Assembly: GCA_037951105.1 (NCBI GenBank)
Contig: JBAMJV010001357.1
Location: 24,527-88,526, forward strand
Length of the DNA stretch: 64,000 nucleotides
Reading direction: 5' to 3'
Source of the DNA: Echinarachnius parma
Lineage: Eukaryota > Echinodermata > Echinoidea > Clypeasteroida > Echinarachniidae
Part shown: positions 9,262 to 58,825 of the stretch, piece by piece
Position numbering within the stretch: the stretch's first letter is position 1
Layout: each line of letters begins with the position of its first letter
Program-made: the position numbers and the translations under genes
Notes under the pieces: generated by a model
What the model was told of the DNA's origin: nothing
The model's input: only the letters and a program-made list of their open reading frames with translations
Database searches by the model: none

Positions 9262-11089
9262 TGTCACAGTAGATTTGAATTAAGCCTAGTTTGTTTACGT
9301 GTGTTTGGGCAAGGACCCCAGCACGTGCACGGCGCGATGATGCTTTGTTATGGAATCGGGTATTATTACGATGTGTCGCTCCAGTAGGCAGCGCTGGTTT
9401 AATTTGTTATTGCTCATTTGTTTGCCCGGCATAGCAGCAAAGCTGTTTGTTGATTTACGGGATAGCGCGATCGCGTGCCACACCGTGATTGGTGCGCACG
9501 ATCGGACACCGCACCCAGGTTGGGTTTGCCGAGCTGTAACTCGGGGCTGTGTTTTGCATATAAATGTTTGCCTCACCTAGTAACGGGACGATAGGCTCGT
9601 AGCCGTACTTGTAGGGCCAATTGTAGTTGAGCGTCAAGTCACATGATAGCATGGTGATTGATGAGTGGGTAAATTAATGATTGGTGAGAGAGGAATTTAC
9701 ACTTATCAGTTGGTGATTGGGTGAACGGTATTGTACACTGCTGGATGTGGTGATTCTGTGAATGAGTTTTGGGGCGCTTTGGTGAGACGTCAGAAGCCAT
9801 TAAGATCTGGTTGAGAGCGGACCTGTTTGAGCCACCAATAGGAGGCGTGTCTCGAGACACGGCCGGAGTTCTGGGAGAATGTGTACTTTGCTGTTGAGAG
9901 CGAGTGTTTTCCCCGTATTCATAGCTGCCAAGTAGTCGGGCTGTATATGCAGACTGTGCAGACGACCGTAGAAAGAGACCGAATTCCTCCGGGAGGGCAA
10001 GCATCGGTCCACAGCTTCTCACGGGCTTCTCATACCAAGGATAGCTGTGAGTTCTGAACTTGTTTATGATTAATTAATTTTATAAAATGTATTATTTAAC
10101 TGTAGTAATTTCTGGACAAACCAGTAAATATATTCTGATACGATATATGTACTGCAAGCAAAATGTAGATAATTATAGAGAGTAATGTATACTATAGTAA
10201 ATGAATGGTATCTTTATAATATCACCATTGAGAGTATGCGATGAATATTATATTACGTATGGAAAGGTAACGATTGATTCATTGAATATACATTAGTCGG
10301 TAAAATTAGACATGATATGTAACCGAAGATAACTTGTTTGCGTTACACAATCTGTTGCAAAGATGTTTGTATGTGCTAACTGCATACAAGAAGTGATCAA
10401 ATGATAACATGCGATTAATATGTCAGCAAGAAGATACTGCTTTAATATATATTTGCAAGTGTTATGGATGCTTTTTCTTTGCAGCCGCATTCGCTTAGGC
10501 GGAATTTGGATTCCGGGCACCGGGCATCGGGACTCGGGAGGGATCACCGACGGCCAAGGGTTACGTCGCCACCGAGGACAGCGGGTACGTGGGCGGTTCT
10601 TTCGCGCCAGATGACAACGTGGTTTTCGGGAGCAGAGGCTTCGCGCACAGCGTACGGTCACGCGTTAGGACGTCGACATCGAACTGGGTTCGACCCGCAC
10701 TACTTCGCGTTGGGCACTCTTCGGGACTGCGTGAGATCACCGACGGACAAGGGCTACGTCGCCACCGTGGACAACGGGAACGTGGGCGGTTCTTTCGCGC
10801 CAGATGACTACGCGGGTACTCGGGAGCAGGGGCTTCGCGCGCACAGCGTATGGTCACGCGTCAGGACGTCGACATCGAACTGGGTTCGACCCGCACTACC
10901 TCGCGTGGGGCGCTCTTCCGCTGGAGATTCGGTATCACATGAACTATAAATATTAGCTGTTAGCTTGAACTAATGAATACTTTAAATATGATCAATGATT
11001 TGAACAATTACTTGTTATTAAACTCTCATTTTATTTCTTAATACCTGTGTACCTAGTGCTTTAATTCACTTGTACTGTGGTAGGCCGCA
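9262..11089 (+). repeat. 5' LTR
   Basis: 1828 bp, TG...CA ends. The AT-rich central part is followed by a GC-rich 3' third containing a 193-bp tandem duplication starting at about 10542 and 10735 (GATCACCGACGG start in both). The LTR is unusually long compared with the 1.55-kb internal region. The strand is set by the gag frame and the primer-binding/purine-tract order. Confidence 0.85.
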
Positions 11090-12643: not shown

Positions 12644-14470
12644 TGTCACAGTAGATTTGAATTAAGCCTAGTTTGTTTACGTGTGTTTGGGCAAGGACCC
12701 CAGCACGTGCACGGCGCGATGATGCTTTGTTATGGAATCGGGTATTATTACGATGTGTCGCTCCAGTAGGCAGCGCTGGTTTAATTTGTTATTGCTCATT
12801 TGTTTGCCCGGCATAGCAGCAAAGCTGTTTGTTGATTTACGGGATAGCGCGATCGCGTGCCACACCGTGATTGGTGCGCACGATCGGACACCGCACCCAG
12901 GTTGGGTTTGCCGAGCTGTAACTCGGGGCTGTGTTTTGCATATAAATGTTTGCCTCACCTAGTAACGGGACGATAGGCTCGTAGCCGTACTTGTAGGGCC
13001 AATTGTAGTTGAGCGTCAAGTCACATGATAGCATGGTGATTGATGAGTGGGTAAATTAATGATTGGTGAGAGAGGAATTTACACTTATCAGTTGGTGATT
13101 GGGTGAACGGTATTGTACACTGCTGGATGTGGTGATTCTGTGAATGAGTTTTGGGGCGCTTTGGTGAGACGTCAGAAGCCATTAAGATCTGGTTGAGAGC
13201 GGACCTGTTTGAGCCACCAATAGGAGGCGTGTCTCGAGACACGGCCGGAGTTCTGGGAGAATGTGTACTTTGCTGTTGAGAGCGAGTGTTTTCCCCGTAT
13301 TCATAGCTGCCAAGTAGTCGGGCTGTATATGCAGACTGTGCAGACGACCGTAGAAAGAGACCGAATTCCTCCGGGAGGGCAAGCATCGGTCCACAGCTTC
13401 TCACGGGCTTCTCATACCAAGGATAGCTGTGAGTTCTGAACTTGTTTATGATTAATTAATTTTATAAAATGTATTATTTAACTGTAGTAATTTCTGGACA
13501 AACCAGTAAATATATTCTGATACGATATATGTACTGCAAGCAAAATGTAGATAATTATAGAGAGTAATGTATACTATAGTAAATGAATGGTATCTTTATA
13601 ATATCACCATTGAGAGTATGCGATGAATATTATATTACGTATGGAAAGGTAACGATTGATTCATTGAATATACATTAGTCGGTAAAATTAGACATGATAT
13701 GTAACCGAAGATAACTTGTTTGCGTTACACAATCTGTTGCAAAGATGTTTGTATGTGCTAACTGCATACAAGAAGTGATCAAATGATAACATGCGATTAA
13801 TATGTCAGCAAGAAGATACTGCTTTAATATATATTTGCAAGTGTTATGGATGCTTTTTCTTTGCAGCCGCATTCGCTTAGGCGGAATTTGGATTCCGGGC
13901 ACCGGGCATCGGGACTCGGAGGGATCACCGACGGCCAAGGGTTACGTCGCCACCGAGGACAGCGGGTACGTGGGCGGTTCTTTCGCGCCAGATGACTACG
14001 TGGTTTTCGGGAGCAGAGGCTTCGCGCACAGCGTACGGTCACGCGTTAGGACGTCGACATCGAACTGGGTTCGACCCGCACTACTTCGCGTTGGGCACTC
14101 TTCGGGACTGCGTGAGATCACCGACGGACAAGGGCTACGTCGCCACCGTGGACAACGGGAACGTGGGCGGTTCTTTCGCGCCAGATGACTACGCGGGTAC
14201 TCGGGAGCAGGGGCTTCGCGCGCACAGCGTATGGTCACGCGTCAGGACGTCGACATCGAACTGGGTTCGACCCGCACTACCTCGCGTGGGGCGCTCTTCC
14301 GCTGGAGATTCGGTATCACATGAACTATAAATATTAGCTGTTAGCTTGAACTAATGAATACTTTAAATATGATCAATGATTTGAACAATTACTTGTTATT
14401 AAACTCTCATTTTATTTCTTAATACCTGTGTACCTAGTGCTTTAATTCACTTGTACTGTGGTAGGCCGCA
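12644..14470 (+). repeat. 3' LTR
   Basis: 1827 bp. Nearly identical to the 5' LTR: one G is missing at about 13918 relative to 10537, and one base differs (AGATGACTACG here, AGATGACAACG there). The open frames seen in both LTRs are duplicates of each other and not genes. Confidence 0.85.
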
Positions 14471-21515: not shown

Positions 21516-22432
21516 TATCTGGTCCCAATAATTGTACAGCCATGGTCAATTTGTTTATTTTGTTTCATTGAGTATTGTTATTGAGTGGTATTTTGAAGGA
21601 GGGGCTGTTTTCATTGGAAAGATTTAGGTCGGCATATACGTAGATAAGGTGTTTAATCTGTTTATATGCAAAATAATGCTTTGGTATGAAGAATGTATAG
21701 TTGATGTTTATATGAACAGGCCTGGCATCATTAGGTAATGGTGACATTTTTCACTGAAAGAGTTAAGCCCAGGTGAATTAGTGGCTTTATTTAGAGGATT
21801 CGAGATCTTTAAGGTATACATGGTATATGCCATGTTAAAGGAATGTGTGGACTATTGTAGTAGTTGTTTACTCTGATGTATAGCAGGTGCGTGCATCATC
21901 ATTACTTTGAACAGACGTGCGCGTATTGTTTGCATGCACTGCTGAGGAGGTTTATTATTAATTGATGATAAGTGCATGCATTTCCCTATGCACATCATCG
22001 GTAAGGTATTTTTTTTTTTGTCTTTCTTTTGAAATGTAATGAGCTTAAAAGGTAGCTCTTGATTTGAAAGAAAAAGGCAAAGATTAGTCAAAGAGTAAAT
22101 GTTTTTTTTTTTTTAAGGTAGAGTCATACTAGGATAATATTGAGGGAACATTGTCTTGATATGAGGAAGTGTGAGGGGGGAGCTTGACGGAGTAGGCCTA
22201 CTTCCGGATTTTTTTATTTTTGTTTGTTTTTTATGTTAGTTCTCGATGGTGGACAGGGTTGGGTGGGGAAGGGTGCGTGTGTGTTGTGTACGGGTTGGGG
22301 TCTGCTCACAGTCAATATGTTTTTTGATACGTCATGTAGGTTTCGTGGTAGTTATTTTTGTTGTATAAACATGCTCACGGGGGATACAGATCACGCGGTA
22401 ATTATACAGATTTTATATACCTGTAAAATAAA
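21516..22432 (+). other. Region upstream of the LINE ORF, no ORF1 recognised
   Basis: This would hold the 5' UTR and ORF1 of an L1/Tx1-type element, but no coiled-coil or RNA-binding ORF1 is readable in either strand. It contains T runs and a GGGTGGGGAAGGGTGCGTGT segment that resembles the 3' region at 26345-26400. Either the element is 5' truncated or ORF1 has been lost. Confidence 0.35.
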
Positions 22433-25400
22433 ATGGTGAATTTTTCTTGGATTACTTTAAATGTAAGAGGGTTACGGAATAAGGATAAAAGAACACGCAT
22501 TTTTGAATGGTGTAAATGTAAAGGATCTGATATTTCTTTTTTACAGGAAACATATAGTACTATAGAAGTAGAAGAACAGTGGAAGAAGGAATGGGGCGGG
22601 CCAATGTTCTTTAGCCATGGGTCAAACCACAGTAGAGGTGTTCTTATTTTATGTTCGCCCCTTTTAGATTTTAAACGGGATGCAGTTGTAATAGATGAAG
22701 AAGGGAGGTACATTATATTTAAAGGGGAAATACAAGGGGTTAAATTTTTGTTGGGAAATGTGTATTTCCCTACAAGAGATAAAGTACAATTACAGGTTGA
22801 TTTTTTGAATAAGTTAGATAAAAGTATATCTGAAGTTTTTGATAAGAATTATTCGGTAATATTAGGGGGAGATTTTAACACTATAATGGAAAGGGGCATG
22901 GATTATGAAGGGCCAAATATTGTATTAAAATCTAGGTTTATTGAGGTATTAAAAAGTTTTTTGAATAAATATGATTTAGAAGATATATGGAGGAAAAGGA
23001 ATCCTAATGTTAGACAGTTTACTTTTAGACAAAGGTCGTCCTTAGTCCAAAGTCGTTTAGATTATTGGTTTATATCATGTAGTTTAGAAAAATTAGTGAA
23101 TAAGTGTGAAATTTTGGTATCGATAACACCGGATCATTCGGGCATTAAATTACAATTTCAGCATTTAGTGGATAAGTTTGTTTTTGGAAAATCGTATTGG
23201 AAATTTAATAATAGTTTATGTATGGATAAAAATTTTGTTGAGGGGATGCATGATATAATATTTGAATTGAAAAATGAATGGGGACCTAGGATTTTGAATA
23301 AATTAGTATTTTGGGATTTTTTGAAAATGAAAATGAGGGAATACGCCATGAAATATTCACGTGAAAAGGCGAAATTAAGGAAACTTGAAATAGAGACGTT
23401 GGAGACTGAAATTAAGGATTTAGAAAATCAGTTAGTCAACGGGGCATCTAGGTATGTTATTGATAGTATTAAATTGAAAAAAGATAAGTTGAATAAATTG
23501 TATGATTTTTCTCGACAGGGCATTAAAGTTCGTTCTAGAGCAGCTTGGTTTGAAGAAGGGGAGAATAATACTCAGTATTTTGAACAATTGTTGAAAGTAA
23601 ATAAGAGGAAAAGTTTCATTAGAGAAATGTATAAGGAAAATGGAGAAATTACTAGGGATAAAAATGACATTTTAAAAGAGATAAAGACATTTTATGAAAA
23701 ATTATATTCTTTGAGGAATGATAGTGGTCCAAATAATGGTTTATTTTTTGATGATATTTTAAAGTTAAGTGAACAGAATAAAGAATTATGTGAAGGTAAA
23801 ATGACGAAAGATGAGTGTTTTAAGGTTTTGAAAGAAATTAAATGGAATAAATCCCCTGGATATGATGGGTTCACGGTGGAATTTTATGATACATTTTGGC
23901 CCTTATTAGGGGATTTGTTGGTAGAAGTATTGAATGAAACATTTGTAAGGGGGGAATTGACGGTATCTCAAAAACAAGGGACTATAACATTGATAGAAAA
24001 AGAGGGAAAAGATGCGAAGCATATTAAAAATTATAGACCCATTACACTGTTAAATGTAGACTACAAAATATTATCGAAGGTTTTAGCAACTAGGATTAAA
24101 AAGGTTTTAAATGAAATAATTCATTATGATCAGGTGGGATATATAAAAGACAGAAATATTGGGGAAGCGGTTCGATTAATAGAGGGTATATTATTTTATT
24201 CTAAACATTCATTAGAGCAAGGACAGGGGTTTCTGATTGCGGTAGATTTCGAAAAAGCTTTTGATTCTGTATCCCATCAATATTTATTGAAAGTGCTAAA
24301 ATTGTTTGGTTTTGGTGATCCGTTTTGTTCTTGGGTGAAGATATTATATAATGATATAAGTAGTTGTATTATGAATGGGGGTTATTCCACTGGTTATTTT
24401 GATATAGAAAGGGGGGTCAGACAAGGTGATCCATTGTCGCCCTATTTGTTTTTGGTTGCAATAGAATTATTGGCAAATGAAGTAAGGAGGGACAAAATAA
24501 TTAAAGGGATACATTTTGGGGAGCATGAAATAAGACAAGTATTGTATGCAGATGATATGACGATTTTTTTGAAAGATTTAGACTCCATAAGAAGGTTGCA
24601 ATATATATTTGAAGAATTTGGAAAAGTAAGTGGTTTGAAAGTTAATAAGGAAAAGACACATTTTATGTATATGGGTGAGGAAAATGGGAAACCAGATGGG
24701 CCTTTATTTGGACAATTTGTTAAGGAAGTAAACATTTTAGGTGTTAATTTCTCGGTCGATTTTAGATTAAAAGATGATTTAAATTACAAAGAAATATTAA
24801 GTAAAATTAAAAAGCTTCTAGGTTGGTGGAAACCGGGATTTGACTATTATGGGTAAAATATACATTTATTGAAAACGTATGCATTAATAAAGTTGAATTA
24901 TGTTTCATCTCTCCTTGTTGTTCCCCTATGGGTTTATATAGAAGTGGAGAAAATATCGTTTGATTTCATATGGGGAGGGAAGGATCGTATAAAAAGAAAA
25001 ATTATGTATCAAAATTATAATTATGGTGGAGTAAAAATGATTAATTTTGAAATATTTGTTAGAACGCAGCGGATAATGTGGGTGAAACGATTATTATATG
25101 GAGAAAGAAATTTGGGATGGAAGTTATTTTTTGATTATTGCTTAAGTTCAGTAGGAGGAAGGCTAATTTTCTTATGTGATTATGAAATGCAAAAGATGAA
25201 GTTTAGGTTCAAGATTCCACCTTATTATTTGGAAATGTTGAAAGCTTGGAAAGAGATTGATAATTTAAGGCATTTTAATGGTTGTATGAATCCAATTATT
25301 TTTAATAATAGGAATATATGTATTAAAAAAAATAAGATGGTATTTGATAAAGAATTATTTGAACGAGGGATTGTTATGTTGAACCATGTTATGGATAATG

Positions 25401-26194
25401 GACATGTTAAACCCGTTGCATACTTTTTGAACCTTGGTATGAGAGGTGACAACTTACTTACAATAATTGATATATATCATGCGATTCCGAGGGATTGGAA
25501 AATTGATTTAGGTTTGATACAATTTTGTGAGGTAGACTTAATAAATTATAATATTAATTTATATCTTTTGGATACAAAATTAAGTTTTAAGGATGTACCA
25601 TCAAGAAAAATATATGATTATTTTATTAGAGAATTGCAAAAGACATATGATTTACAGATAAGAGATGGACAAAATGATTTTAATTTTATAGATAAAGAAA
25701 TGTATGATTGTTTTTTTAGACCAAGAATAACATTAATAATTGGGAAACAGAGAGAGTTTCAATTTAAGTTACTCCATGGGGCAATTTACACTAAAGATAA
25801 TTTATTTAGATTTGGATTTGTTGAAGACAACTTGTGTTCGTACTGTAAACGGGAAAGGGAAACATATTCGCATTTATTTTTATTTTGTTTAAATGTAAAA
25901 TTGACATGGCAAGCTTTGATACAACGTTTTTTGTTAGATGAAATAAAGGACTTAAATTGGCGGGATATATTTGTTGGATTGTTAGGTAATTCAAATAGAA
26001 TAAAATGTTGCAATACCATAATTTTTATGGTAAAATATATTTTATTTGTATTTAGAAAAGAGGGTGTTCTACCTAATATTGATAAAATACAGAAACTGTT
26101 ATTGGATTATAAGGCCCAGGAAAAGGGAATAGCAATTAAAATGGGAAAATTAGGACTACATTTACAAAAATGGGAAACGGTAAAATTAGAATAA
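22433..26194 (+). pseudogene. LINE ORF2 (endonuclease + reverse transcriptase) with one stop
   Basis: The frame from ATG 22433 runs 807 codons to TAA at 24854, then stays open in the same frame for a further 446 codons to 26194. An apurinic-like endonuclease occupies about residues 1-240 with its key residues visible: Asn10, Glu39 (FLQET), Asp147/Asn149 (GGDFN), Asp210 (SRLDYW) and Asp234-His235. The reverse transcriptase follows, with KSPGYDGF, NYRPITLLN, AVDFEKAFDSVSH, GVRQGDPLSPYLF and YADD at residues 705-708. Near the C terminus, CSYCKRERETYSHLFLFC is the zinc-knuckle-like motif of L1-type ORF2. The single stop lies just after the RT domain, before the C-terminal third. Domain order and motif style fit the L1/Tx1 group. 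The copy is recent or recently disabled. Confidence 0.88.
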
Positions 26195-36023: not shown

Positions 36024-36368
36024 AACACTATATCCTTGGAAATGATGATACCATAACACTGACGGACACTGACGCCCGGAACGCTTGGGATGCTGGAGAT
36101 GACTACCCATGGTGGACCTTCAAGACATCCGTGGGCAGAAGAATAAGATTCCACTTTAGAAGATTTTATTGGTATTTGCAAATTGGAGATGGTCTGTCAC
36201 CTGGAGACAACACACGCTTGGTTTATTTCTGGGGTGACGATCAGCCAAGCGATGTATTCTCCATATCTAATGCTGCGTGGTTAAAGGATCCACCGCAAAT
36301 ACTCCTATATATGGTCTCAATAAGTCGAGTGCATTTTTTCGATTTTTATTACAACATCTATATGGGCA
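36024..36368 (+). CDS. Receptor exon 2: CUB-like domain 1
   Basis: After acceptor CTTGCAG the frame reads EHYILGNDDTITLTDTDARN and continues through WWTFKTSVGRRIRFHF, LQIGDGLSPGDN, FSISNAAWLKDP and ILLYMVSISRVHFF. The pattern (beta strands, an IGDG turn, then SISNAAWL) matches the C-terminal part of the neighbouring CUB3 remnant (KSVSNAAWVRILF), which supports a CUB-type fold. It lacks the usual CUB cysteines. The 3' boundary is uncertain: a phase-1 donor could be GTTTAC after 36368 or a GC donor after 36365. The frame otherwise stays open to 36454. Confidence 0.5.
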
Positions 36369-37290: not shown

Positions 37291-38104
37291 GTGACATATT
37301 TTGTATATAAAGTCAAATCGTAATATTTCCATCGTTAATATATGTGTTGGTTATGCGTCCACTGATCTGATATTTTAAATATCTACCCATTTATCGAATA
37401 CTGGTGGGACCGAATAGTGGTATTGCTACGATATTATTTCACAGTCGATATCACCTCTACTCCTGTGCCAGGTAAGTCATAATACAAATATTTTATGTTT
37501 GATATAACATATTTTTGCTTTCCAACCGGCTGAATCTTCATACATTCAATTTCATATTCTTTATATCCCAACGTTACATCTCGTTCCATGTATTTCTTCT
37601 TTTTTTCAGGGCAATTTTCATGTCTAAAACACTGCTTACGGTTATTGATCTGTTCATAATCTTTTAAAATTTCAGTGAATGTAATTTACCAAACTTATTA
37701 TATATGTTACTGTTTCGTAAAGATATTTGTTTTCATCAATATTTAATATTCTACAATTGTGTTCCTGATTTATTAGTTGTGCATGTTTTGTGAATATATT
37801 TGTCTAATATTCGTGTAAGTATTTGTATTATGAGTTGATATTGAAAGTAACTGCAATGGATAAGTACATGAAAAATAAATGAATAAATAGATAATCAAAA
37901 TTATATTAGCTGCATCATTTGGCTACACCTAATCATAGCGCTTTACCTAGATTAAGAAGAATATGTCTTATATAGTACATGTTTATGTCAGAATATTATT
38001 ATGCATGTTCTGCGATACAACTGGCATGAACCCACTATTACTACTATTGCAGAAACGAATTCAGTTCTTTAGAGTACAAACACGAATAAACTGCATGATT
38101 ATGT
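37291..38104 (+). other. Intronic sequence, no exon seen
   Basis: AT-rich DNA between the triplicated unit and the MITEs. No splice-bounded frame with domain similarity. Confidence 0.35.
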
Positions 38105-40250: not shown

Positions 40251-41091
40251 TGTCCAAAATAGGTCTCTTCCAGCTATCACCCCTCGATGTCGTGTCGGTA
40301 CGGGCATCCCATGAGTGGCTGCGTTGGAAATCGTCTTTTGAGATATACGTCACTGCAGCCGGAATCACGGACGTCGCCGTTAAACGGGCGACTATCCTGC
40401 ATTGACTTTGCCTTGGTTTCTAGCGACTATACAATTCTTTCCGCCTGATGGTGGTTCGGTAAACTCGGCGGTTGGACAACTATCAAAGTACGTCGTGCTG
40501 AAACGCAACGTCGCCTTCGAGAGGCAGCGTCTCCGCCGTTTTGTACAGAAAAGCGGCCAAGGCTCGGACACTGTTCCTGAGAAATCTAGCCTGGTCATCA
40601 TGAAGTGACGAATCCATGAATTCAACGATGATATTGTCAAAACAATCGCAGAATGGATTTCGCTGATATTAATAATAATAATAATAGACCAGCATTTATA
40701 TTGCGCCATCAATCTAGAAATTCCAAGGCGCATCATACTGTACAGTATAGTATTACCCTGGCTGTAGCCGAGCTGCCTTGCAGGCGCATCAAACATTTCA
40801 AGGAATAAATTCCTGCCAGGTACCCATTTACTACACCTATATTCAACACGTCGCGCGATCACAGAATCAGCCTCTCCTTCGAATACCTAAATTTCAAAGA
40901 CCACAGCGAGGTCGTGGAGATCGGTGATAAATCTGACATGGACAATGATTGCAGACTGGCGATATTTAGCGGGAGCACCGTTCTCACTGAAGTAAAATCT
41001 GTGAGTAACGCCGCCTGGGTCAGGATTCTTTTTCCAAATAGTGATATACTTCTGCATGTTCGGATTAAAGTGACTTCAATGGTTTTAACGG
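40251..41091 (+). pseudogene. CUB domain 3 region, broken by insertion and stops
   Basis: Three pieces are visible. At about 40257-40410 the frame LFQLSPLDVVSVRASHEW followed by SSFEIYVTAAG looks like the C-terminal half of a CUB domain, ending in a stop. At about 40419-40606, after an acceptor-like TTGGTTTCTAG, an open frame (TIQFFPPDGGSVNSAVGQL and on) has no recognised family and ends at TGA 40606. After a retroelement-like insertion (40660-40850), 40860-41091 gives another CUB C-terminal half: RISLSFEYLNFKDH, FSGSTVLTEVKSVSNAAW, then a good phase-1 donor G|GTAAGG. No single open exon spans these, so at least one CUB module here is dead. Confidence 0.55.
40660..40850 (+). mobile_element. 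Retroelement 3'-tail-like insertion
   Basis: An ATAATAATA tract, then AGCATTTATATTGCGCC, ATTACCCTGGCTGTAGCCGA, GCTGCCTTGCAGGCG and ATTCCTGCCAGGTACCCATT. A related sequence is at 48803-48945 (CATAGCGCTTACTTAC, ATTACCTTGGCGTTAGCCGA). The dispersed copies support a short interspersed or LINE-tail element, here inside the CUB3 region. Confidence 0.6.
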
Positions 41092-43550: not shown

Positions 43551-43999
43551 CTCTATGTATTTAACTTTCTCTTCATGTGGACTCCACATACCTATTATAT
43601 TGTGTTTTGTCACCTTTCCTCATCGTCATCACATGATCACTCTCGTGCCACCTCATCTCATCCCTTATTGGTTGTAGAATAAGGTCATTCCATTTCAGTT
43701 AGGTATATTTTGTAAATGGTTGTAGTAGTTTCTCCCTTAGTTCATTTGCATATTATATGTTAATTATTATCTATTGTTATGAGTGTTCTTGTTTGCCAGT
43801 TGGGCTTAATAAAAGCAGTGCATTACCAGACTTAATCGTATCCTCTGTTCTCCCTTGGTTCTACTCTTTTGTTCTTTGATGTTGCTGTATGATTGATTGA
43901 TGTTTGAACTTTTTTTTACCAGTTAAGTTATACTTATAGTTTGTACTACCCTCTCCACGTCTACATTATTTTATCTAATAGTAATACTTTAAAATATTA

Positions 44000-44310
44000 C
44001 ACTAGTTGTCCAAACAATGCCTACAGCATATGGCACCTTCGAGCTCCTGACAATTTCGTCATCGGGATTCAGTTCTTCAAATACGACACAGATCCGGGAA
44101 CAGATGTTCTCCATATAGGGCAAGGCATCATAAGCTCAACGCGATGGAAGCAGATTCGCGGTTACTATGGCAACGGACAGACAACTTTGGATTTCACATC
44201 ATTCAGCTTGTCTCTCATCATGCTCATTGTTATCTTAATGAGAGACCGCCAAGGCACTGCATCCGGGTTCTTGATCGGATTTAAGTCGACACGAACTTTA
44301 TATCCGTACG
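44000..44310 (+). pseudogene. CUB domain 4 exon, 5' truncated
   Basis: From TTGTCCAAACAATGCC the frame reads CPNNAYSIWHLRAPDNFVIG, then TDVLHIGQG, TRWKQIRGYYGNG and GTASGFLIGFKS. This aligns with CUB2 from its PNNAFQLWE motif to its end. The first 20 or so residues and the acceptor are missing: the sequence upstream is the A'-B' repeat, which joins at an ACTAGT shared with the other repeat unit. No phase-1 donor is evident after GFKS. The frame stays open to 44399 without further domain similarity. It is probably a dead module skipped in splicing. Confidence 0.6.
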
Positions 44311-45939: not shown

Positions 45940-46179
45940 ACTCGCAAGCACCCATCATAACTGACTGTTCCACGGATGTAACTGAGAATTCTAATTCTGG
46001 GACCACAGTCAATATCACATGGACTCCCCCTACTGCCGCCGACAACTCTAGGGAGGTTACTCTTACTTCAGACTATAGTCCTGGAGACCCGTTTGCCATC
46101 GGGACAACGAGAGTGACCTATACCGCTACGGATGCATCGGGAAACACTGCAACGTGTTCGTTCAATGCCACGGTAGTAG
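45940..46179 (+). CDS. HYR exon 2
   Basis: A 240-bp exon, phase 1-1, acceptor TAATACTAG, donor GTAAAT, 80 residues. The HYR pattern is complete: SQAPIITDCSTDVTENSNSG, NITWTPPTAADNS, SDYSPGDPFAIGTTRVTYTA, DASGNTATCSF. HYR modules are immunoglobulin-like extracellular repeats found in hyalin and complement-related proteins and are used in adhesion. Confidence 0.85.
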
Positions 46180-46718
46180 GTAAATACAGAGTGACGTTTT
46201 AAACCAACACGCCGCTTTCTTTCGTAGATTATAGTATTTCCGCAGATACGCTTATACCATTTTTTTAATTTTGTTTTCTTTATACATTGGTTTACAGGTA
46301 AATTGTCATTGTTATTGATTGAATGATTTCATTGTTAAAGTCTTCTTATCTAGATGTTACACTTTGTTATTCTTGTTTTCTTCTTTTCTTTTTTGTTGGA
46401 CGGGGGGCGGGGGCTGATGTTTTTTTTGACCGAATGTCATTAACCGTGGTTTCAATCTACAATAACATCCCAAGCACTACCACCGCCAACAACAACAAGA
46501 ACAACCACCAAAAATAGCAGCATAATAAAATACATGAACAAAAACAGCAACAGCACCTCCACTGTCATGTCGACATCTCTGTAATGATGCCCCTATGCCT
46601 GTGAAGTTGGGTTACTTATGATTGAATATTTGTTACGCAATCGATATTTATCTTTATTTACGAAATTCGTGTTCATATTTTACCCTTTTAACATTTTGTT
46701 TGTATTGTGTAACCCTAG

Positions 46719-46815
46719 ATTCTCAAGCACCTATCATAACTGACTGTCCCACGGATTTAACTGAGAATATCTGTTCTGGCACCACAGTCAATATCACTAG
46801 GACTCCGCCTACTGC
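46719..46815 (+). pseudogene. HYR exon 3, truncated
   Basis: Acceptor AACCCTAG and the first 32 or so codons are present (SQAPIITDCPTDLTENICSG, TRTPPTA). At about 46814 it runs straight into intron text found downstream of other HYR units (GGGGGCCTGTGGTATCTTGACCG, compare 49027). The second half and donor are deleted. Trp of the WTPPTA motif is Arg. As the exon is phase 1-1, skipping it keeps the frame. Confidence 0.75.
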
Positions 46816-47097
46816 GGGGGGCCTGTGGTATCTTGACCGAATGTCATTAATCGTGTTTTAAAAAGATCGACCCTACCACCTCTTCCACAATCAAAAAGAT
46901 CAAAATACCAACAAGAAAAAACACTAAAAACAACTGCATAACATCATCTTGAGTGCAATGTCGACATCTTTGAGATTTAGCCCCTATGCTTAGAAGGTTG
47001 AGTCACTTACGGGTGTGACCGTCACGCATCTTTATTTGCGAAATGCCTTTCCATAATGTACCCCCTTATGTGTTATTGGTTTTTTCTGTAACCCTAG

Positions 47098-47337
47098 ATT
47101 CTCGAGAACCGATCATAATTGACTGTCCCATGGATATAACTGAGAATTCCAATTCTGGGACAACAGTCAATATCACATGGACTCCGCCTACTGCCACCGA
47201 CAACTCCAAGGTAGTTACTTTAACTTCAGGCTGTAGTCCTGGAGACTCGTTTGTCATCGGGACAACGACAGTAACCTATATCGCTACGGATGCATCAGGA
47301 AACACTGCTACGTGTTCGTTCAATGTTACGGTAGTAG
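47098..47337 (+). CDS. HYR exon 4
   Basis: 240 bp, phase 1-1, acceptor GTAACCCTAG, donor GTAAGT. Encodes SREPIIIDCPMDITENSNSG, NITWTPPTATDNS, then SGCSPGDSFVIGTTTVTYIA and DASGNTATCSFNVTVV. It has an extra cysteine (TSGC where sisters have TSDY), which may be unpaired. Confidence 0.85.
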
Positions 47338-49299: not shown

Positions 49300-49539
49300 A
49301 TGCTCAAGCACCGATCATAGCTGACTGTCCGACGGATATAACTGAGAATTCCAGTTCTGGGACTACAGTCAATATGACATGGACTCCGCCTACTGCCACC
49401 GACAACTTCAGTATGGTTACTCTAACTTCAGACTATAGTCCTGGAAACTCGTTTACCATAGGGGTATCGACAGTGACCTATACCGCTACGGATGCATCGG
49501 GAAACACAGCAACGTGTTCGTTCAATGTCACGGTAGAAG
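49300..49539 (+). CDS. HYR exon 5
   Basis: 240 bp, phase 1-1, acceptor GTAACCCTAG, donor GTAAGT, 80 residues: AQAPIIADCPTDITENSSSG, NMTWTPPTATDNF, SDYSPGNSFTIGVSTVTYTA, DASGNTATCSFNVTVE. All HYR landmark residues are kept, including both cysteines. Confidence 0.85.
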
Positions 49540-51175: not shown

Positions 51176-51415
51176 ATTCTCAAGCACCGATCATAACGGA
51201 CTGTCCCACGAATATAACTGAGAGTTCCGGTTCTGGGACCACAGTCAATATCACATGGACTCCGCCTACTGCCACCGACAACTCCAGGGATGTTACTCTA
51301 ACTTCAGACTATAGTCCTGGAGACTCGTTTGCCATCGGGACAACGAGAGTGACCTATTCCGCTACTGATCCATCGGGAAACATTGCAACGTGCTCGTTTT
51401 ATGTCACGGTAGTAG
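51176..51415 (+). CDS. HYR exon 6
   Basis: 240 bp, phase 1-1, acceptor GTAACCCTAG, donor GTAAGT: SQAPIITDCPTNITESSGSG, NITWTPPTATDNS, SDYSPGDSFAIGTTRVTYSA, DPSGNIATCSFYVTVV. It is the last HYR module. Its phase-1 end matches the phase-1 start of the transmembrane exon at 54134. Confidence 0.85.
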
Positions 51416-51499: not shown

Positions 51500-52010
51500 A
51501 GAACACAAGAGATACCATACGTCGCGACGCCTTCACCACTAGGCCACAGAGACTTCGTGAATGAAGGCAGATCCAAATCCAAGTCATTGAAGTTCGAATC
51601 CTGGCGGAGACAGTTTTTCTACCCGTGCCTGTTTTCATTTGGAGGAGCTAAGGGAGGAACATTGCTTATTAAGCTACGCCTGCTATTCTTCCTTTTCAAT
51701 CATTTATGATTATTCTTTGCAATTATTTAAATAAAGGAAGAAACCAAAACTGTATGTATTAGTTCACTTTCGCTTGTATATTATATGTATTAAATAATAC
51801 TTGAATCACTCTAGTGTGATCCAGCTGACGTAAAGGCGGATTGCATTGTTTGTAACTCCCTCCCAATTAATCAATTGAGTACGAAGGGGCGGAAAATTGG
51901 CTCGCCAATGGATCTGTCTTCATTCACAAAATTTCTGTGGCCTAGTGGCGAAGGCGTTGGCGTTCAAAGTCGGAGGCCCGGGTTCGAGTCCTGTCGGAGA
52001 CATAGATATA
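51500..52010. mobile_element. tRNA-derived SINE copies in opposite orientations
   Basis: At 51880-52010 (plus) a tRNA-like head GTGGCCTAGTGGCGAAGGCG is followed by a B box GGGTTCGAGTCCTG. At about 51505-51570 the matching head is on the minus strand (CGCCTTCACCACTAGGCCAC), while a B-box piece AGTTCGAATCCTGGCGGAGA at 51590 is on the plus strand. This indicates a rearranged second copy. These are SINE heads, not tRNA genes. Confidence 0.55.
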
Positions 52011-54133: not shown

Positions 54134-54267
54134 CCAGAACCAACATGGGACTAACTACTCGCATTACAATACCATCTCTCTCCGTGACAACTGTATTTCT
54201 TCTACTAATATTCATCCGATGGGCGCATCTGAAGCGGAGAAGACATCGGCATAATATCACTCAGAGG
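54134..54267 (+). CDS. Receptor transmembrane exon
   Basis: A 134-bp exon, phase 1 start and phase 0 end, encoding about 45 residues: a short stalk (RTNMGLTTR), a hydrophobic helix ITIPSLSVTTVFLLLIFI and a basic stop-transfer segment RWAHLKRRRHRHNITQR. The acceptor is ATTTTAACAG; the donor is AGG|GTGGGT. The positive-inside rule puts the following tail exon in the cytoplasm. If the donor were not used, the frame would stop five codons later (TAA at 54280), giving a tail-less membrane form. Confidence 0.75.
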
Positions 54268-54519
54268 GTGGGTGACATATAAAGAATGCACCATAATATT
54301 ATACTACGGGATATAATCGATGTTTCCATATTAAAATATTGGTCAAGAAAAATAAACACAACAAAAAAGTAACTCCCCCCCCCCCCCCTAATCCAAATGT
54401 CTTAAGTTTTTAACAAATAGGGTTTGAGCAACATAACTTGGCAGGAATGTTTCTAAACGTATTGGCTAACGTCTCTGTGAAAAAGGAAAAATTTCACTTT
54501 TCAAAAGTCACAAGAGTCA

Positions 54520-54760
54520 AAAAGTGAAAATTTTGCCTTTGATGTGTCGTCACTCATTCATGACTCGACGGACCAATCTAATTTTCACACAGAAGTTATT
54601 CAATAAATGTAGGAACAGTCCTGCCGAGTTATTTTGCGCAAAATAACTCGGCAGGATTGTTCCTACACTTATTGAATAACTTATGTGTGAAAATGAAATT
54701 GGTCCATCGAGTCATGCATGAGTGAGCAAACATCAAATGAAAGATTGGCCCTTTGTGTGC
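54520..54760. mobile_element. Palindromic element
   Basis: Inverted arms are centred at 54637/54638 (ATTTTGCGCAAAAT) and extend from about 54551 to 54724 with few mismatches, then more weakly outward. No coding capacity. Confidence 0.75.
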
Positions 54761-54976
54761 TCACTCATGCGTGACTCAATGGACAATATGTCTCCTTGGT
54801 GTTATTCCTTTAAAATGCCTTACGGGGGGGGGGGGGGGGGGGTAAAATACAACTGATATCTAAGTTGTCATCACTGCTGCACGAACTTACATATATATTA
54901 TGTAAGATATATTGATACTTATTTTTGAATGATTTTTTATTTTAATGGTTAAATTATATTTTAAAAACATATATGT

Positions 54977-55387
54977 CATAGGTTTTCCCGCTCAATTTTA
55001 CACTTTTTCAATCGATTTTATAAAGGGTCATTCAAATTCAGGAGAATTACCACGTAGGAATCGTTGGTATCGGTCCTCCAAATTTCGAATAGGTGCAAGC
55101 GAATTCATGCAAACGCATGAGCTTTCGTGAATAGACACAGAAGTTCATTTATGGGCATTCGAATTCGCGAATGTGCAGCCAACTGTCAACCGCCCTTTTG
55201 CGAATTCGAATGACCATTGATGAAAAGGTATGCTCTTTGTGCAAATTCACTTGCTCCTACGTGATTTTGAACGACTATTTACGAATCCGAATGCTGCTTT
55301 GACACGGCGATCGCAATCGCGCGAATTCGTTTGCTCCTATTATCAATTGGATTGTGACACAATCGCAAAATTGAGCGGGAAAATCTA
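54977..55387. mobile_element. TIR MITE
   Basis: Ends TAGGTTTTCCCGCTCAATTTT and AAAATTGAGCGGGAAAATCTA are inverted copies. The inside has repeated GCGAATTCG and GAATTCG motifs on both sides. It lies about 140 bp before the tail exon acceptor. Confidence 0.8.
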
Positions 55388-55524
55388 TATTACAACTTTG
55401 TTTATGTATCTATGCTTTGTATATTCTGTTGGAGGGCCTCTACAAAAAAAAGTGCTCTCATCACTGACAGAGCTACCCTACTTAAATAAAAAAACGAATT
55501 AAAAAAAAATTTTCTTATTTGCAG

Positions 55525-58413
55525 ACGTATTACGAAGTGACGAGGGCTCTACCAGATACCCCATCAGCATCCGGAGAAGGTGTAGGTCTTCGTCCCTTTG
55601 GAGATGGTCTCCAGACTGATCCACATGGTAACGACAGAGATCCCGATTTTACTTACTACGCAAAATCAACCTGCAACATTTATGAAACTATTCCTGATTT
55701 TGACAGACTACCGGAGATGTCTTGGAAGGGTGAATCGATAGGCACTAGCTTTGGTAACATATCGAATGTATCCACGTTCGGAAAAGAAGCAAATGAAGAT
55801 GATGGTTATGCACCAGTCCCTGATCCTCTTGCCAATAAAATGCAAAGAAAAGTAACAGAAGCAATGCACACAAATCAACCAGAAGAAGGCGGCACACAAC
55901 AGACAGACACGCTCCTGTCTGGAGGGCTGCAGTCTCCTACAAATGAGAGTTTAAGACATGTACAGCCAGATCCCCCAAACCCCGTTTTGGATTCGAGGTC
56001 AGTAAGAGTCTTTGACGAAGAAGGGTACCTCGTTACACTAACAGAAGAAAGAAAGCTGATGAGCATGGTTCAAGAAACTTCAAAGGCAGCCGTGAATATC
56101 ATCCGCTGTACAATTCCTGACGTAAGCAGCCGTCACCCAGATGAACCTGACCACCCGGAACAACATGCTTACGAAGCTCCAGATGAAATGGAGGCCCTTA
56201 CAAGGAAGTCTTCCTTCTTCACTAATACGTCTATCAATCATGAGGGTACAGTCGAGTTGGAAAATGTCTCGCTTCAGCACACATATCATGGATGTGAGGC
56301 AAATGATGATTCTCTTCCCACTCCCCGACCTTCCACCATGAATGGTCGTGACAGGAATACAAGAAACCGGACCCTAGATACAGGCGAAGGCAGCTCTACT
56401 TCATTACCTGTAATAGATGATGAATCATCCTCATCCGGTTCCAATGAGTCATCAGAAGAAGACCTGACCTTATCTGAACCTCTCCAGCACACATACTACG
56501 CAAAATCAACCTGCAACATTTATGAAACTATTCCTGATTTTGACAGACTACCAGAAATGTCGTTAAAGGGTGAATCGATAGTCACTAGCTTTGGTAACAT
56601 ATCTCATGTATCTACATTGGGAAAAGAAGCAAATAAAGAGGATGGTTATGTACCAGTCCCTGATCCTCTTGCCAATACAATGACAAGAAAAGTAATTAAA
56701 GCAATTAACATAAATCGCCAAGAAGAAGATAAGGCAGAACAGACGAACAAGCTCTTGTCAGGAGGGCTGTCTCCCTCGAATGAGAGTTTAAGACACCTAC
56801 AGCCAAATTCCCCAAACCCAGTTTCGGATTTGAGGTCAGTAAGAGTCTTTGACGAAGAAGGGTACCTCGTTCCAATAACAGAAGAGAGAAAGCTGATGAA
56901 AACGGTTCAAGAAACTTCAAAGGCAGCCGTGAATATCATCCCCTGTAAAATTCCTGACGTAAGCAGTCGACACCCAGGTGACCACCCGGAACACCATGCG
57001 TACGAAGCTCCAGATGAAATGGAGACACTGAAAAGGAATTCTTCCTCATTCGCTACTTCTACTCTCAATCATGAGGGTACAGTTGATTTTGAAACTGACT
57101 CGCTTCTGCACACATATCATGAATGTGAAGTAAATGATGATTCCCTTCCCATTCCCCGACCTTCCACCAGACATGGTCGTGACAGATTATCTGGAGGGTT
57201 GTCTCCAACAATTGAGAAAACGGGCAGTCCTCAAAAACCCGTTTCGGATTTGAGTTCGGTAAGAGTCCTTGATAAAGAAGGATACTTCGTTCCACTAACT
57301 GAAGAAAGAATGTTTGTGAAAATGGTTAAGAGGTCTTCAAAGCCATCCATGAAGCTCGTCCCCTGTAATATTCCCGACAGAAGCAGTCAACTCCCTGATA
57401 AACCCGACAACCCGGAATACCATGCGTACGAAGCTCCAGATGAAATGGAGACCATGGCAAGTAAGGCTTCCTTGTTCACTACTACTTCTTTCGATTATGA
57501 GGGCACAGTCGAGTTTGCAAGTGACCCGCTTCAGCACACATATCATGGATGCGAGGCAAATGACGATTCTATCCCCACTCCCAGACCCACCACCACACAA
57601 ATTCGTGACAGAAATACCCTGACAGAAATATCATCCGAAGAAGACTTGTCCTTATTTGAACCTCTTCAGCACACATACCTTACCACCGGTGATCTATCAG
57701 GTAAATCTTTGAAGGATGGCACAAATGGAAGTGGAATCGATGATGAAGAATATCTCGTTCCAAAGAGAGACGATGATATCAGATCAAAGACCCATACTTT
57801 TTCACCAAGAAACAAAGATGGAGAAATCCCTTCTGATAGTCTTTGTCACACCTATCATGAACACCCACCTCAAAATCAACACCAAGGCCAACGAGTCAGT
57901 AGCACCAAAACAAACGCCCCCACCATCGAGTTGTCCGACTGCGATATGACTTATTCACAAGGGCTTCGGCACACTTACCACGATATGCGAGAACAAACCT
58001 CTAACCATCGACACGATGTAGATATCAGTAGTACCAACGCCGTCGAGTTGCCCGATGGCGATATGGATGACACACAAGGCCTTCAACACACGTACCATGA
58101 TATGCGAGATCAAGCATCTTACCATCTGCAAGATGCAGATATCAGTAGTACCAACGCTGTCGAGTTGCCCGATGGCGATATGGATGACATACAAGGCCTT
58201 CAGCACATATACCATGATATGCGAGATCAATGTATCGGAAGCATGAACAACAACACATCCACCGTTGGTTTGCACGATGTCGGCATTATTGATAGATTAG
58301 AGCTTCAGCACACCTACCATGATATGCGGGAAGAATCATTCCACGATCATAAGCACGATCAAGACATACTCGTCGATGAAGATGAGTCTGATTCGCAAGC
58401 ATACCTATCTTGA
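55525..58413 (+). CDS. Receptor last exon: repeated, tyrosine-rich cytoplasmic tail
   Basis: One uninterrupted exon of 962 codons, from acceptor TTTGCAG to TGA at 58411, in frame with the TM exon. It is hydrophilic, low in hydrophobic runs, rich in Asp/Glu/Ser/Pro and therefore probably disordered. Numbering from the open frame start at 55519, a 280-residue module occurs at about 46-325 and 326-556 (the latter shorter), and its second half again at 557-720. Each carries NIYETIPDFDRLPEMS (not in the third), DGYxPVPDP, RVFDEEGYLV, HAYEAPDEME and QHTYHxCE. Residues 774-940 hold a short repeat ending HTYHDMR. The exon has 31 tyrosines: YxxP at 218, 449, 495, 589, 637 and 745; YHDM at 820, 859, 898 and 933; YETI at 55 and 335. 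YxxP, YxxM and YEEI-like sites are known binding contexts for Crk-, PI3K p85- and Src-type SH2 domains. I know of no matching named protein. The signalling role is inference. Confidence 0.8.
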   Translation, partial: TYYEVTRALPDTPSASGEGVGLRPFGDGLQTDPHGNDRDPDFTYYAKSTCNIYETIPDFDRLPEMSWKGESIGTSFGNISNVSTFGKEANEDDGYAPVPDPLANKMQRKVTEAMHTNQPEEGGTQQTDTLLSGGLQSPTNESLRHVQPDPPNPVLDSRSVRVFDEEGYLVTLTEERKLMSMVQETSKAAVNIIRCTIPDVSSRHPDEPDHPEQHAYEAPDEMEALTRKSSFFTNTSINHEGTVELENVSLQHTYHGCEANDDSLPTPRPSTMNGRDRNTRNRTLDTGEGSSTSLPVIDDESSSSGSNESSEEDLTLSEPLQHTYYAKSTCNIYETIPDFDRLPEMSLKGESIVTSFGNISHVSTLGKEANKEDGYVPVPDPLANTMTRKVIKAININRQEEDKAEQTNKLLSGGLSPSNESLRHLQPNSPNPVSDLRSVRVFDEEGYLVPITEERKLMKTVQETSKAAVNIIPCKIPDVSSRHPGDHPEHHAYEAPDEMETLKRNSSSFATSTLNHEGTVDFETDSLLHTYHECEVNDDSLPIPRPSTRHGRDRLSGGLSPTIEKTGSPQKPVSDLSSVRVLDKEGYFVPLTEERMFVKMVKRSSKPSMKLVPCNIPDRSSQLPDKPDNPEYHAYEAPDEMETMASKASLFTTTSFDYEGTVEFASDPLQHTYHGCEANDDSIPTPRPTTTQIRDRNTLTEISSEEDLSLFEPLQHTYLTTGDLSGKSLKDGTNGSGIDDEEYLVPKRDDDIRSKTHTFSPRNKDGEIPSDSLCHTYHEHPPQNQHQGQRVSSTKTNAPTIELSDCDMTYSQGLRHTYHDMREQTSNHRHDVDISSTNAVELPDGDMDDTQGLQHTYHDMRDQASYHLQDADISSTNAVELPDGDMDDIQGLQHIYHDMRDQCIGSMNNNTSTVGLHDVGIIDRLELQHTYHDMREESFHDHKHDQDILVDEDESDSQAYLS

Positions 58414-58825
58414 TTTTAAAGAATAATCCATCTTAACTCATAGCTAAGCCGAAAGAAACACGTCTATAAGATTGAAAAGACGTTAAGAATTCGAGTGTAT
58501 CCCGAGGCCTTCAGGATTTGTACATATCTGTATCTCCCACTGAACAGTCTTCCCAACTTCCAATAGTAAAATTCCCTAACGGACCACAATACTAGCTCAT
58601 GTAAATGTATATACTGTAAATTGGAGATTCCTTTATTACCTAAAAATACAGCTTATCACATATTGTCTGTAAAAACAATGGTTACATGGCACACCTTGAA
58701 ATGTAATGCTATACATTTTCTTCAGAACATGATGCCATTCAGGTACTATTATTTGATTTAAAATGTATATGTCACACCAGTACTTATGTTTACATTATGA
58801 ATAAACATTTACGGTATCATGAAAG
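58414..58825 (+). other. Receptor 3' UTR
   Basis: AT-rich, without domain-like frames, ending at the AATAAA at 58800. Confidence 0.5.
58800..58805 (+). terminator. Polyadenylation signal of the receptor gene
   Basis: AATAAA about 390 bases after the stop codon, the first canonical hexamer downstream of the tail exon. Confidence 0.55.

Follow-up and report, generated by a model that had tools for sequence, protein, structure and literature searches.

A 64,000-nt stretch of the Echinarachnius parma genome (GenBank assembly GCA_037951105.1, contig JBAMJV010001357.1, positions 24,527 to 88,526, forward strand; hereafter the window) contains a gene with exons for CUB and HYR domains, a membrane span and a cytoplasmic tail of repeated tyrosine modules. 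The tail is shared by a large family of genes, across which the tyrosines and their immediate neighbours are kept while the sequence between them drifts. The best explanation, to which we give a probability of about 0.7, is a CUB/HYR receptor that spans the membrane once and serves as a docking platform for SH2 proteins. A previous reading of this DNA, made from the letters without database searches (the sequence-only reading), had proposed a receptor that gathers many SH2 proteins at once; at the level of motifs that proposal holds. The family went unseen in that reading, as did its commonest class of tyrosine site, YxxM.

Anatomy of the tail exon

The tail's reading frame is open from 55486 to a stop codon at 58411-58413 (975 codons), and the exon proper begins at 55525, directly after an acceptor ending in tttgcag. 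Across 300 mononucleotide shuffles, the longest run without a stop was 100 amino acids on average and 188 at most. The single open exon of about 2.9 kb described in the sequence-only reading stands, as do its two and a half copies of a module of up to 280 residues, which appear in the DNA as direct repeats about 840 nt apart. A 279-nt segment occurs twice (spacing 840 nt, 86% identity), a 300-nt segment three times (spacings 837 and 420) and an 87-nt unit four times (spacings 117, 117 and 105). The body of the tail consists of two long copies and a partial copy of this module of about 280 residues, after which come four short HTYHDM/HIYHDM repeats. Features of the tail region, in window positions, are:

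55525..58413, plus strand: cytoplasmic tail exon, 962 codons plus stop, 31 tyrosines; acceptor tttgcag, then ACG
55651..56490, plus strand: tail module copy 1 (TYYAKSTCNIYETIPDF ... EPLQHT), direct repeat with a spacing of 837-840 nt
56491..57187 (end approximate), plus strand: tail module copy 2 (TYYAKSTCNIYETIPDF ... HGRD), 86% identical to copy 1 over 279 nt
57188..57690 (borders approximate), plus strand: tail module copy 3, partial (LSGGLSPTIE ... EGYFVP ... HAYEAP ... HTYHGC ... EPLQHTY), third copy of the 300-nt repeat, spacing 420
57739..57773, plus strand: DDEEYLVP site, in direct DNA repeats, with EEYLVP in common with DAEEYLVP of HER2/HER4
57923..58348, plus strand: four terminal repeats, each with H(T/I)YHDM (YxxM), spaced 35-39 residues apart
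58800..58805, plus strand: candidate polyadenylation signal AATAAA, read from the sequence

The 31 tyrosines fall in the recurring contexts previously named, and every count was reproduced: NIYETIPDF twice, DGYxPVPDP twice, EGYLV/EGYFVP/EEYLVP four times, HAYEAP three times and H-T/I-Y ten times. Four of the ten H-T/I-Y sites are YHDM, a YxxM motif that had been overlooked. At 31 of 962 residues (3.2%), tyrosine density alone is unremarkable; the unusual part is the recurrence and conservation of the sites. The tail is acidic (net charge -86) and is predicted to be disordered from its charge-hydropathy plot, with a mean hydropathy of 0.399 against a boundary of 0.445. Searches with the tail gave no Pfam match up to E = 1, hence none to a kinase domain, and no match in PDB or in Rfam, the window's single Rfam match, a tRNA, lying outside the tail.

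Receptor architecture upstream of the tail

The exons assigned to the same gene, all read on the plus strand, are:

36024..36289 (start from acceptor, end approximate), plus strand: first CUB-like exon, 51% identical to the matching stretch of paralogous locus L029
39329..39679, plus strand: CUB exon, Pfam CUB 4e-09, 62-69% to paralogues
40820..41091, plus strand: CUB-like exon, Pfam CUB 6.9e-4, 20.4 bits (curated cut-off 21.4), 58-60% to L029/L030
43983..44290, plus strand: CUB-like stretch lacking the splice borders of its paralogues, 20.7 bits (below cut-off), aligned with L029 and L030
44658..44892 (start approximate), plus strand: HYR domain exon 1, Pfam HYR 8e-16, donor read
45940..46179, plus strand: HYR domain exon 2, Pfam HYR 8.4e-18, phase 1-1
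47098..47337, plus strand: HYR domain exon 3, Pfam HYR 5.7e-20, phase 1-1
49300..49539, plus strand: HYR domain exon 4, Pfam HYR 9e-19, phase 1-1
51176..51415, plus strand: HYR domain exon 5, the last before the transmembrane exon, 79.6% to HYR exon 2 by tblastn, phase 1-1
54134..54267, plus strand: transmembrane exon (ARTNMGLTTRITIPSLSVTTVFLLLIFIRWAHLKRRRHRHNITQR), phase 1 in, phase 0 out
54268..55524, plus strand: intron between transmembrane and tail exons (GTGGGT...TTTGCAG), donor kept in 22 paralogous loci

Four of the HYR exons score 58.6-71.9 bits against a Pfam cut-off of 21.7, and the fifth is assigned by its identity to exon 2. All five end in phase 1 and the tail exon is in phase 0, compatible with the transmembrane exon between them. 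Within that exon, the membrane span is followed by RWAHLKRRR. Positive residues flanking a span generally lie on the cytoplasmic side (the positive-inside rule), and we therefore place the tail inside the cell. Exon order, phases and this basic stretch together describe a single-pass type I protein with a tyrosine-motif tail; no signal peptide exon was located. The coupling of the tail to a CUB/HYR membrane receptor, which the sequence-only reading had supposed, is thus borne out by compatible phase, by topology and by the exons upstream, and an intact transmembrane exon recurs in 22 of 25 family loci (below).

The first CUB-like exon gave no Pfam match when taken alone; the second half of its domain probably lies near 37370-37470. 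The stretch at 43983..44290 is probably an eroded exon. A truncated HYR fragment at 46679-46819, between HYR exons 2 and 3, is probably a relic exon, and the intron after HYR exon 5 holds the tRNA match (51931-52002, Rfam 37.6 bits), possibly a tRNA-derived repeat.

A clustered gene family

The union of searches with the window tail and with a diverged tail gave at least 72 tail loci in the 1.2 Gb assembly, and a transmembrane-exon query gave at least 131 genomic matches, or at least 125 loci; these are lower bounds drawn from best-scoring candidates, and may include haplotigs among the copies at 97-98% identity. For 67 of the 72 tails, the contig also carries a transmembrane-exon match no more than 8 kb away. 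The loci are clustered: a single contig of 460 kb holds ten tails and another holds seven. The window region itself aligns to contigs C7515 and C6746 at about 97%, introns included, and 39 tails collapse to 38 groups at 99% identity and 23 at 95%; some tail loci are surely alleles or recent copies. Listed tail frames are mostly open, exceptions being C13361 (many stops), the C1944 tail at 84 kb (one stop) and the C6746 tail at 40-42 kb (divided between two frames).

Flanks were fetched for 25 tail loci (L009-L033). The 22 with an intact transmembrane exon keep its AG acceptor and GT donor, with introns of varying length, and their flanks contain HYR domains in 15 cases, CUB domains in three and neither in four. 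All 37 tails compared have a CAG acceptor; these range from 451 to 1227 residues with 12-39 tyrosines, some being cut by the fetched stretch. Upstream of the transmembrane exon, L029 has four CUB or CUB-like stretches and L030 three. At both of these loci, which lie on C868, the CUB-like exons adjoin the transmembrane exon with no HYR match, perhaps an older form of the gene. On C3312, C2385, C3264, C11064, C3334 and C2795, two transmembrane-exon matches lie about 260 bp apart, perhaps as alternative or duplicated exons.

We also considered a paired-receptor arrangement, given 58 transmembrane loci with no listed tail within 8 kb. This idea is weakened by HTYHDM sites that adjoin some of these loci (C622, C1928, C868 near 114 kb, and C1453 near 14-15 kb); the apparent lack of tails at least partly reflects the scoring of best candidates only.

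Tyrosine motif classes

Across 968 tyrosines in 44 tails, the +3 residue is methionine 202 times (23 expected) and proline 169 times (64 expected). The most frequent words are YHDM (182), YLVP (83), YEAP (73) and YHGC (70), making YxxM, as HTYHDM, the commonest class in the family. Searched genome-wide as a DNA pattern, HTYHDM(R)E has 292 exact encodings, against none for a reversed-pattern control, and the first places listed for it include loci outside the 72 tail loci. YHxM sites are mostly 39-44 residues apart and number 0-7 per tail in 39 tails. In the same 39 tails, tyrosine is kept in 507 of 513 motif-anchored sites from ten classes (45/46, 44/44, 67/67, 44/44, 64/64, 31/32, 35/36, 35/36, 119/121 and 23/23), a count in which the anchors include neighbouring residues and strongly altered sites do not figure. 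The pattern of the immunoreceptor tyrosine-based activation motif (ITAM) occurs in none of the 44 tails, that of the inhibitory motif (ITIM) in three, the window tail not among them, and Grb2-type YxN in seven. Y-x-x-[LIMFV] fits 377 of the 968 tyrosines and is present in all 44 tails.

Constraint on the tyrosine sites

Constraint and site counts used 39 of the 44 tails; L011, L015, L031, L032 and L033 had no intact start in the best frame, the starts of L026 and L037 were set by hand, and the DNA fetched ends within the tails of L042, L043, L044, L048, L049 and L052. The alignment spans the first 330 residues, with 317 of 417 columns kept (gaps in no more than 25%). Within three codons of nine consensus tyrosines, the ratio of nonsynonymous to synonymous differences per site (pN/pS) is 0.0665/0.205 = 0.32, against 0.201/0.262 = 0.77 elsewhere in the tail, and when the site mask was rotated along the alignment, 4 of 316 circular shifts gave a value as low. 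Reducing the set to a single tail from each 95% group (23 tails) gives 0.32 (95% interval 0.21-0.49) near tyrosines and 0.75 (0.66-0.84) in the rest. The sequence-only reading had suggested selection on these sites, and had named as grounds for giving up the idea contexts no better conserved among paralogues than neighbouring residues; that comparison has now been made, and the contexts are the better conserved.

A tree-based count of amino-acid steps per column agrees: 1.33 at tyrosine, 0.71 at +1, 2.86 at +2, 1.29 at +3 and 1.43 at +4 (seven columns for every offset from +1 to +4), against 4.77 at columns more than eight residues away. Nine random columns were as low as the tyrosine columns in 0.1% of draws. 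It is suggestive that +2 is looser than +1 and +3. Apart from three cysteine columns, tyrosine is the most conserved residue type, and with a median synonymous divergence (dS) of 0.35 between diverged genes the sites are kept and the spacers are not.

For 14 loci readable throughout, the last HYR exon has a pN/pS of 1.06 and the transmembrane exon one of 0.47, and within the tail the value is 0.19 around the tyrosines and 0.98 away from them. The near-tyrosine range here, -2 to +4, was picked after the step profile, whereas the range of three on either side used above was fixed beforehand. In an eight-locus subfamily, the near-tyrosine value is 0.12. The last HYR exon has a pN/pS of 1.10 in 16 loci, 1.5 in the six-locus subfamily that includes the window copy and 0.53 in the eight-locus one; because the subfamilies differ, we make no claim of positive selection on the ectodomain. 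We consider it very likely that these are selected tyrosine motifs in a receptor tail.

Probable SH2 docking by the tail

We propose that the receptor presents CUB and HYR domains outside the cell and a long, acidic, disordered tail inside. Clustering or a ligand would bring a tyrosine kinase to the receptor, tail tyrosines would be phosphorylated, and the tail would become a multi-site scaffold to which SH2 proteins then bind. YHDM, a YxxM site, would recruit PI3K-p85-type domains, YLVP and YEAP (YxxP) Crk/Nck/PLC-gamma-type domains, and YETI and YEAI Src-type domains. Module duplication and the variable number of YHDM repeats would set the loading of each protein, with the spacers as linkers.

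SH2 docking is consistent with the receptor topology, with the disorder of the tail and with the constraint seen at tyrosine, +1 and +3, and we favour it as the probable function of the tail. The constraint is seen family-wide and is weak in the window copy's own subfamily. Assignment of partners to motifs is a step further, and the chance that the named types are right falls a little short of even. For Crk, Nck, PLC-gamma and Src, the assignments follow the general motif preferences of these domains. In most SH2 domains the +3 side chain becomes buried, and the p85 consensus is pY-M-x-M (PMC7337045). YHDM keeps the +3 methionine but has histidine at +1, and PI3K is a likely, predicted partner of this site.

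Several points weigh against this explanation. The histidine of YHDM departs from the p85 consensus just given (PMC7337045), and YxxM, YETI and YAPV also fit the YxxPhi sorting motifs recognized by AP-2. Phosphorylation and SH2 binding are predictions from motifs. The shift test described above is of moderate strength only, the paralogues are related and gene conversion may occur among them, and the contrast is weak within the six-locus subfamily of the window copy (0.78 near tyrosines, 1.05 in the rest, from few changes). The transmembrane exon of L032 is broken across two frames, and none is in view at L031, where the contig ends, or at L033, with about 4 kb of flank.

Alternative explanations

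The weak contrast in the six-locus subfamily raises the question of whether the window copy is decaying, or was recently lost, within a family that otherwise works, which we consider rather unlikely. Compared with L009, L010 and L011, it lacks 8 bp near the end of its tail and so also the HTYLDF site with which tails usually end. Its fourth CUB-like stretch, which lacks the splice borders seen in L029 and L030, and its truncated HYR fragment point the same way. However, its 962 codons are free of stops, the splice signals of its transmembrane and tail exons are present, its five HYR exons are open, and indels within the CUB-like stretch preserve the frame. The window copy may be drifting.

The main rival to SH2 docking concerns the function of the sites. 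Since YHDM and YETI also fit YxxPhi, the tyrosines could serve mainly as endocytic signals for the AP-2 mu subunit, in a scavenger-type receptor for cargo uptake instead of a signalling scaffold. CUB domains are found in endocytic receptors, and the reach of YxxPhi across the family (377 tyrosines, some in every tail) is as this proposal expects. Nonetheless, YLVP, YEAP, YHGC and YFTT do not fit YxxPhi and yet recur with the tyrosine kept, conservation of +1, the least changed offset, is not explained by YxxPhi, and tens of sites per tail would exceed what sorting needs. We regard it as distinctly improbable. That the repeats are a neutral low-complexity expansion, with motifs recurring only through repeat youth, would suit the tandem duplication of modules and the pN/pS of 0.75-0.98 outside the sites, but is already contradicted by the pN/pS and step-count tests, by sites that outlast spacers between diverged genes and by the standing of tyrosine as the most conserved residue type bar those cysteines, leaving it hardly any probability.

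Relation to known receptors and docking proteins

The nearest known design for the SH2-docking receptor proposed here is that of CDCP1, which has no kinase of its own; the comparison is one of architecture. CDCP1 is a transmembrane protein with CUB domains and five cytoplasmic tyrosines, among them an ITAM-like pair; Src-family kinases phosphorylate cytoplasmic tyrosines of this protein, and SHP2 binds to them (PMC4395315). The window gene has a comparable CUB ectodomain, in one CUB exon and two further stretches just below the Pfam cut-off. The short tail with an ITAM-like pair has no counterpart here: no ITAM was found in the 44 tails, and the window tail has 962 residues. The family also differs from CDCP1 in its other site classes, its longer tails, its module duplication, the HYR domains of many members and its large gene number.

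IRS, Gab and p130Cas likewise collect SH2 proteins on repeated YxxM/YxxP sites in a long disordered region. These docking proteins are cytosolic adaptors with PH, PTB or SH3 modules, whereas the tail described here belongs to a transmembrane receptor, has no Pfam domain and is built from a duplicated 280-residue module. The DDEEYLVP site shares EEYLVP with the DAEEYLVP of HER2 and HER4, as given in PMC3894164. Unlike the tails of EGFR, HER2 and HER4, this one has no Pfam kinase domain, which sets it apart from receptor tyrosine kinases, and the ErbB resemblance is probably convergent and confined to a short motif. Nor does this look like an ITAM/ITIM immunoreceptor, given the absence of the first pattern and the rarity of the second. 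We place the family with kinase-less, tyrosine-docking receptors, as a new form of that design.

The sequence-only reading knew of no described family with such a tail coupled to CUB/HYR modules, and the searches made are consistent with this within their coverage. The window tail and a 15-tail alignment, compared with 5.8 billion predicted proteins, gave no homologue among the roughly 8,000 candidates scored for each query, those with the most words in common, in a search that limits candidate length by query length and covers animal proteomes poorly. The literature searches, made on listings and abstract openings with subscription papers thinly covered, showed no description of the family, and neither 'HYR' nor 'hyalin' occurs in the text of PMC13228809.

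Other features of the window

Non-LTR retrotransposon frames lie at 22427-26194, the first of which matches, at 87% identity across 99% of its length, an ENA-source protein with endonuclease and reverse transcriptase domains. The segments 9295-10949 and 12677-14330 form a long direct duplication about 3.4 kb apart, in which translated frames recur, two of them identical.

Implications for the family

A broader and more tentative possibility is that the SH2-docking receptors make up a receptor system of animals that has yet to be described, with perhaps a hundred clustered CUB/HYR genes in one genome. Module number would then encode the strength and mix of the signal, individual genes differing in their numbers of PI3K-type, Crk/PLC-gamma-type and Src-type sites. 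Copy number, clustering and fast drift away from the sites would be in keeping with a role in immune recognition or self-recognition. If this is true, one genome would contain dozens of naturally occurring docking-tail variants whose sites are conserved and whose linkers drift, and the effect of site number, type and spacing on receptor output would become directly testable. A large kinase-less receptor family would then join the poorly known signalling receptors of invertebrates.

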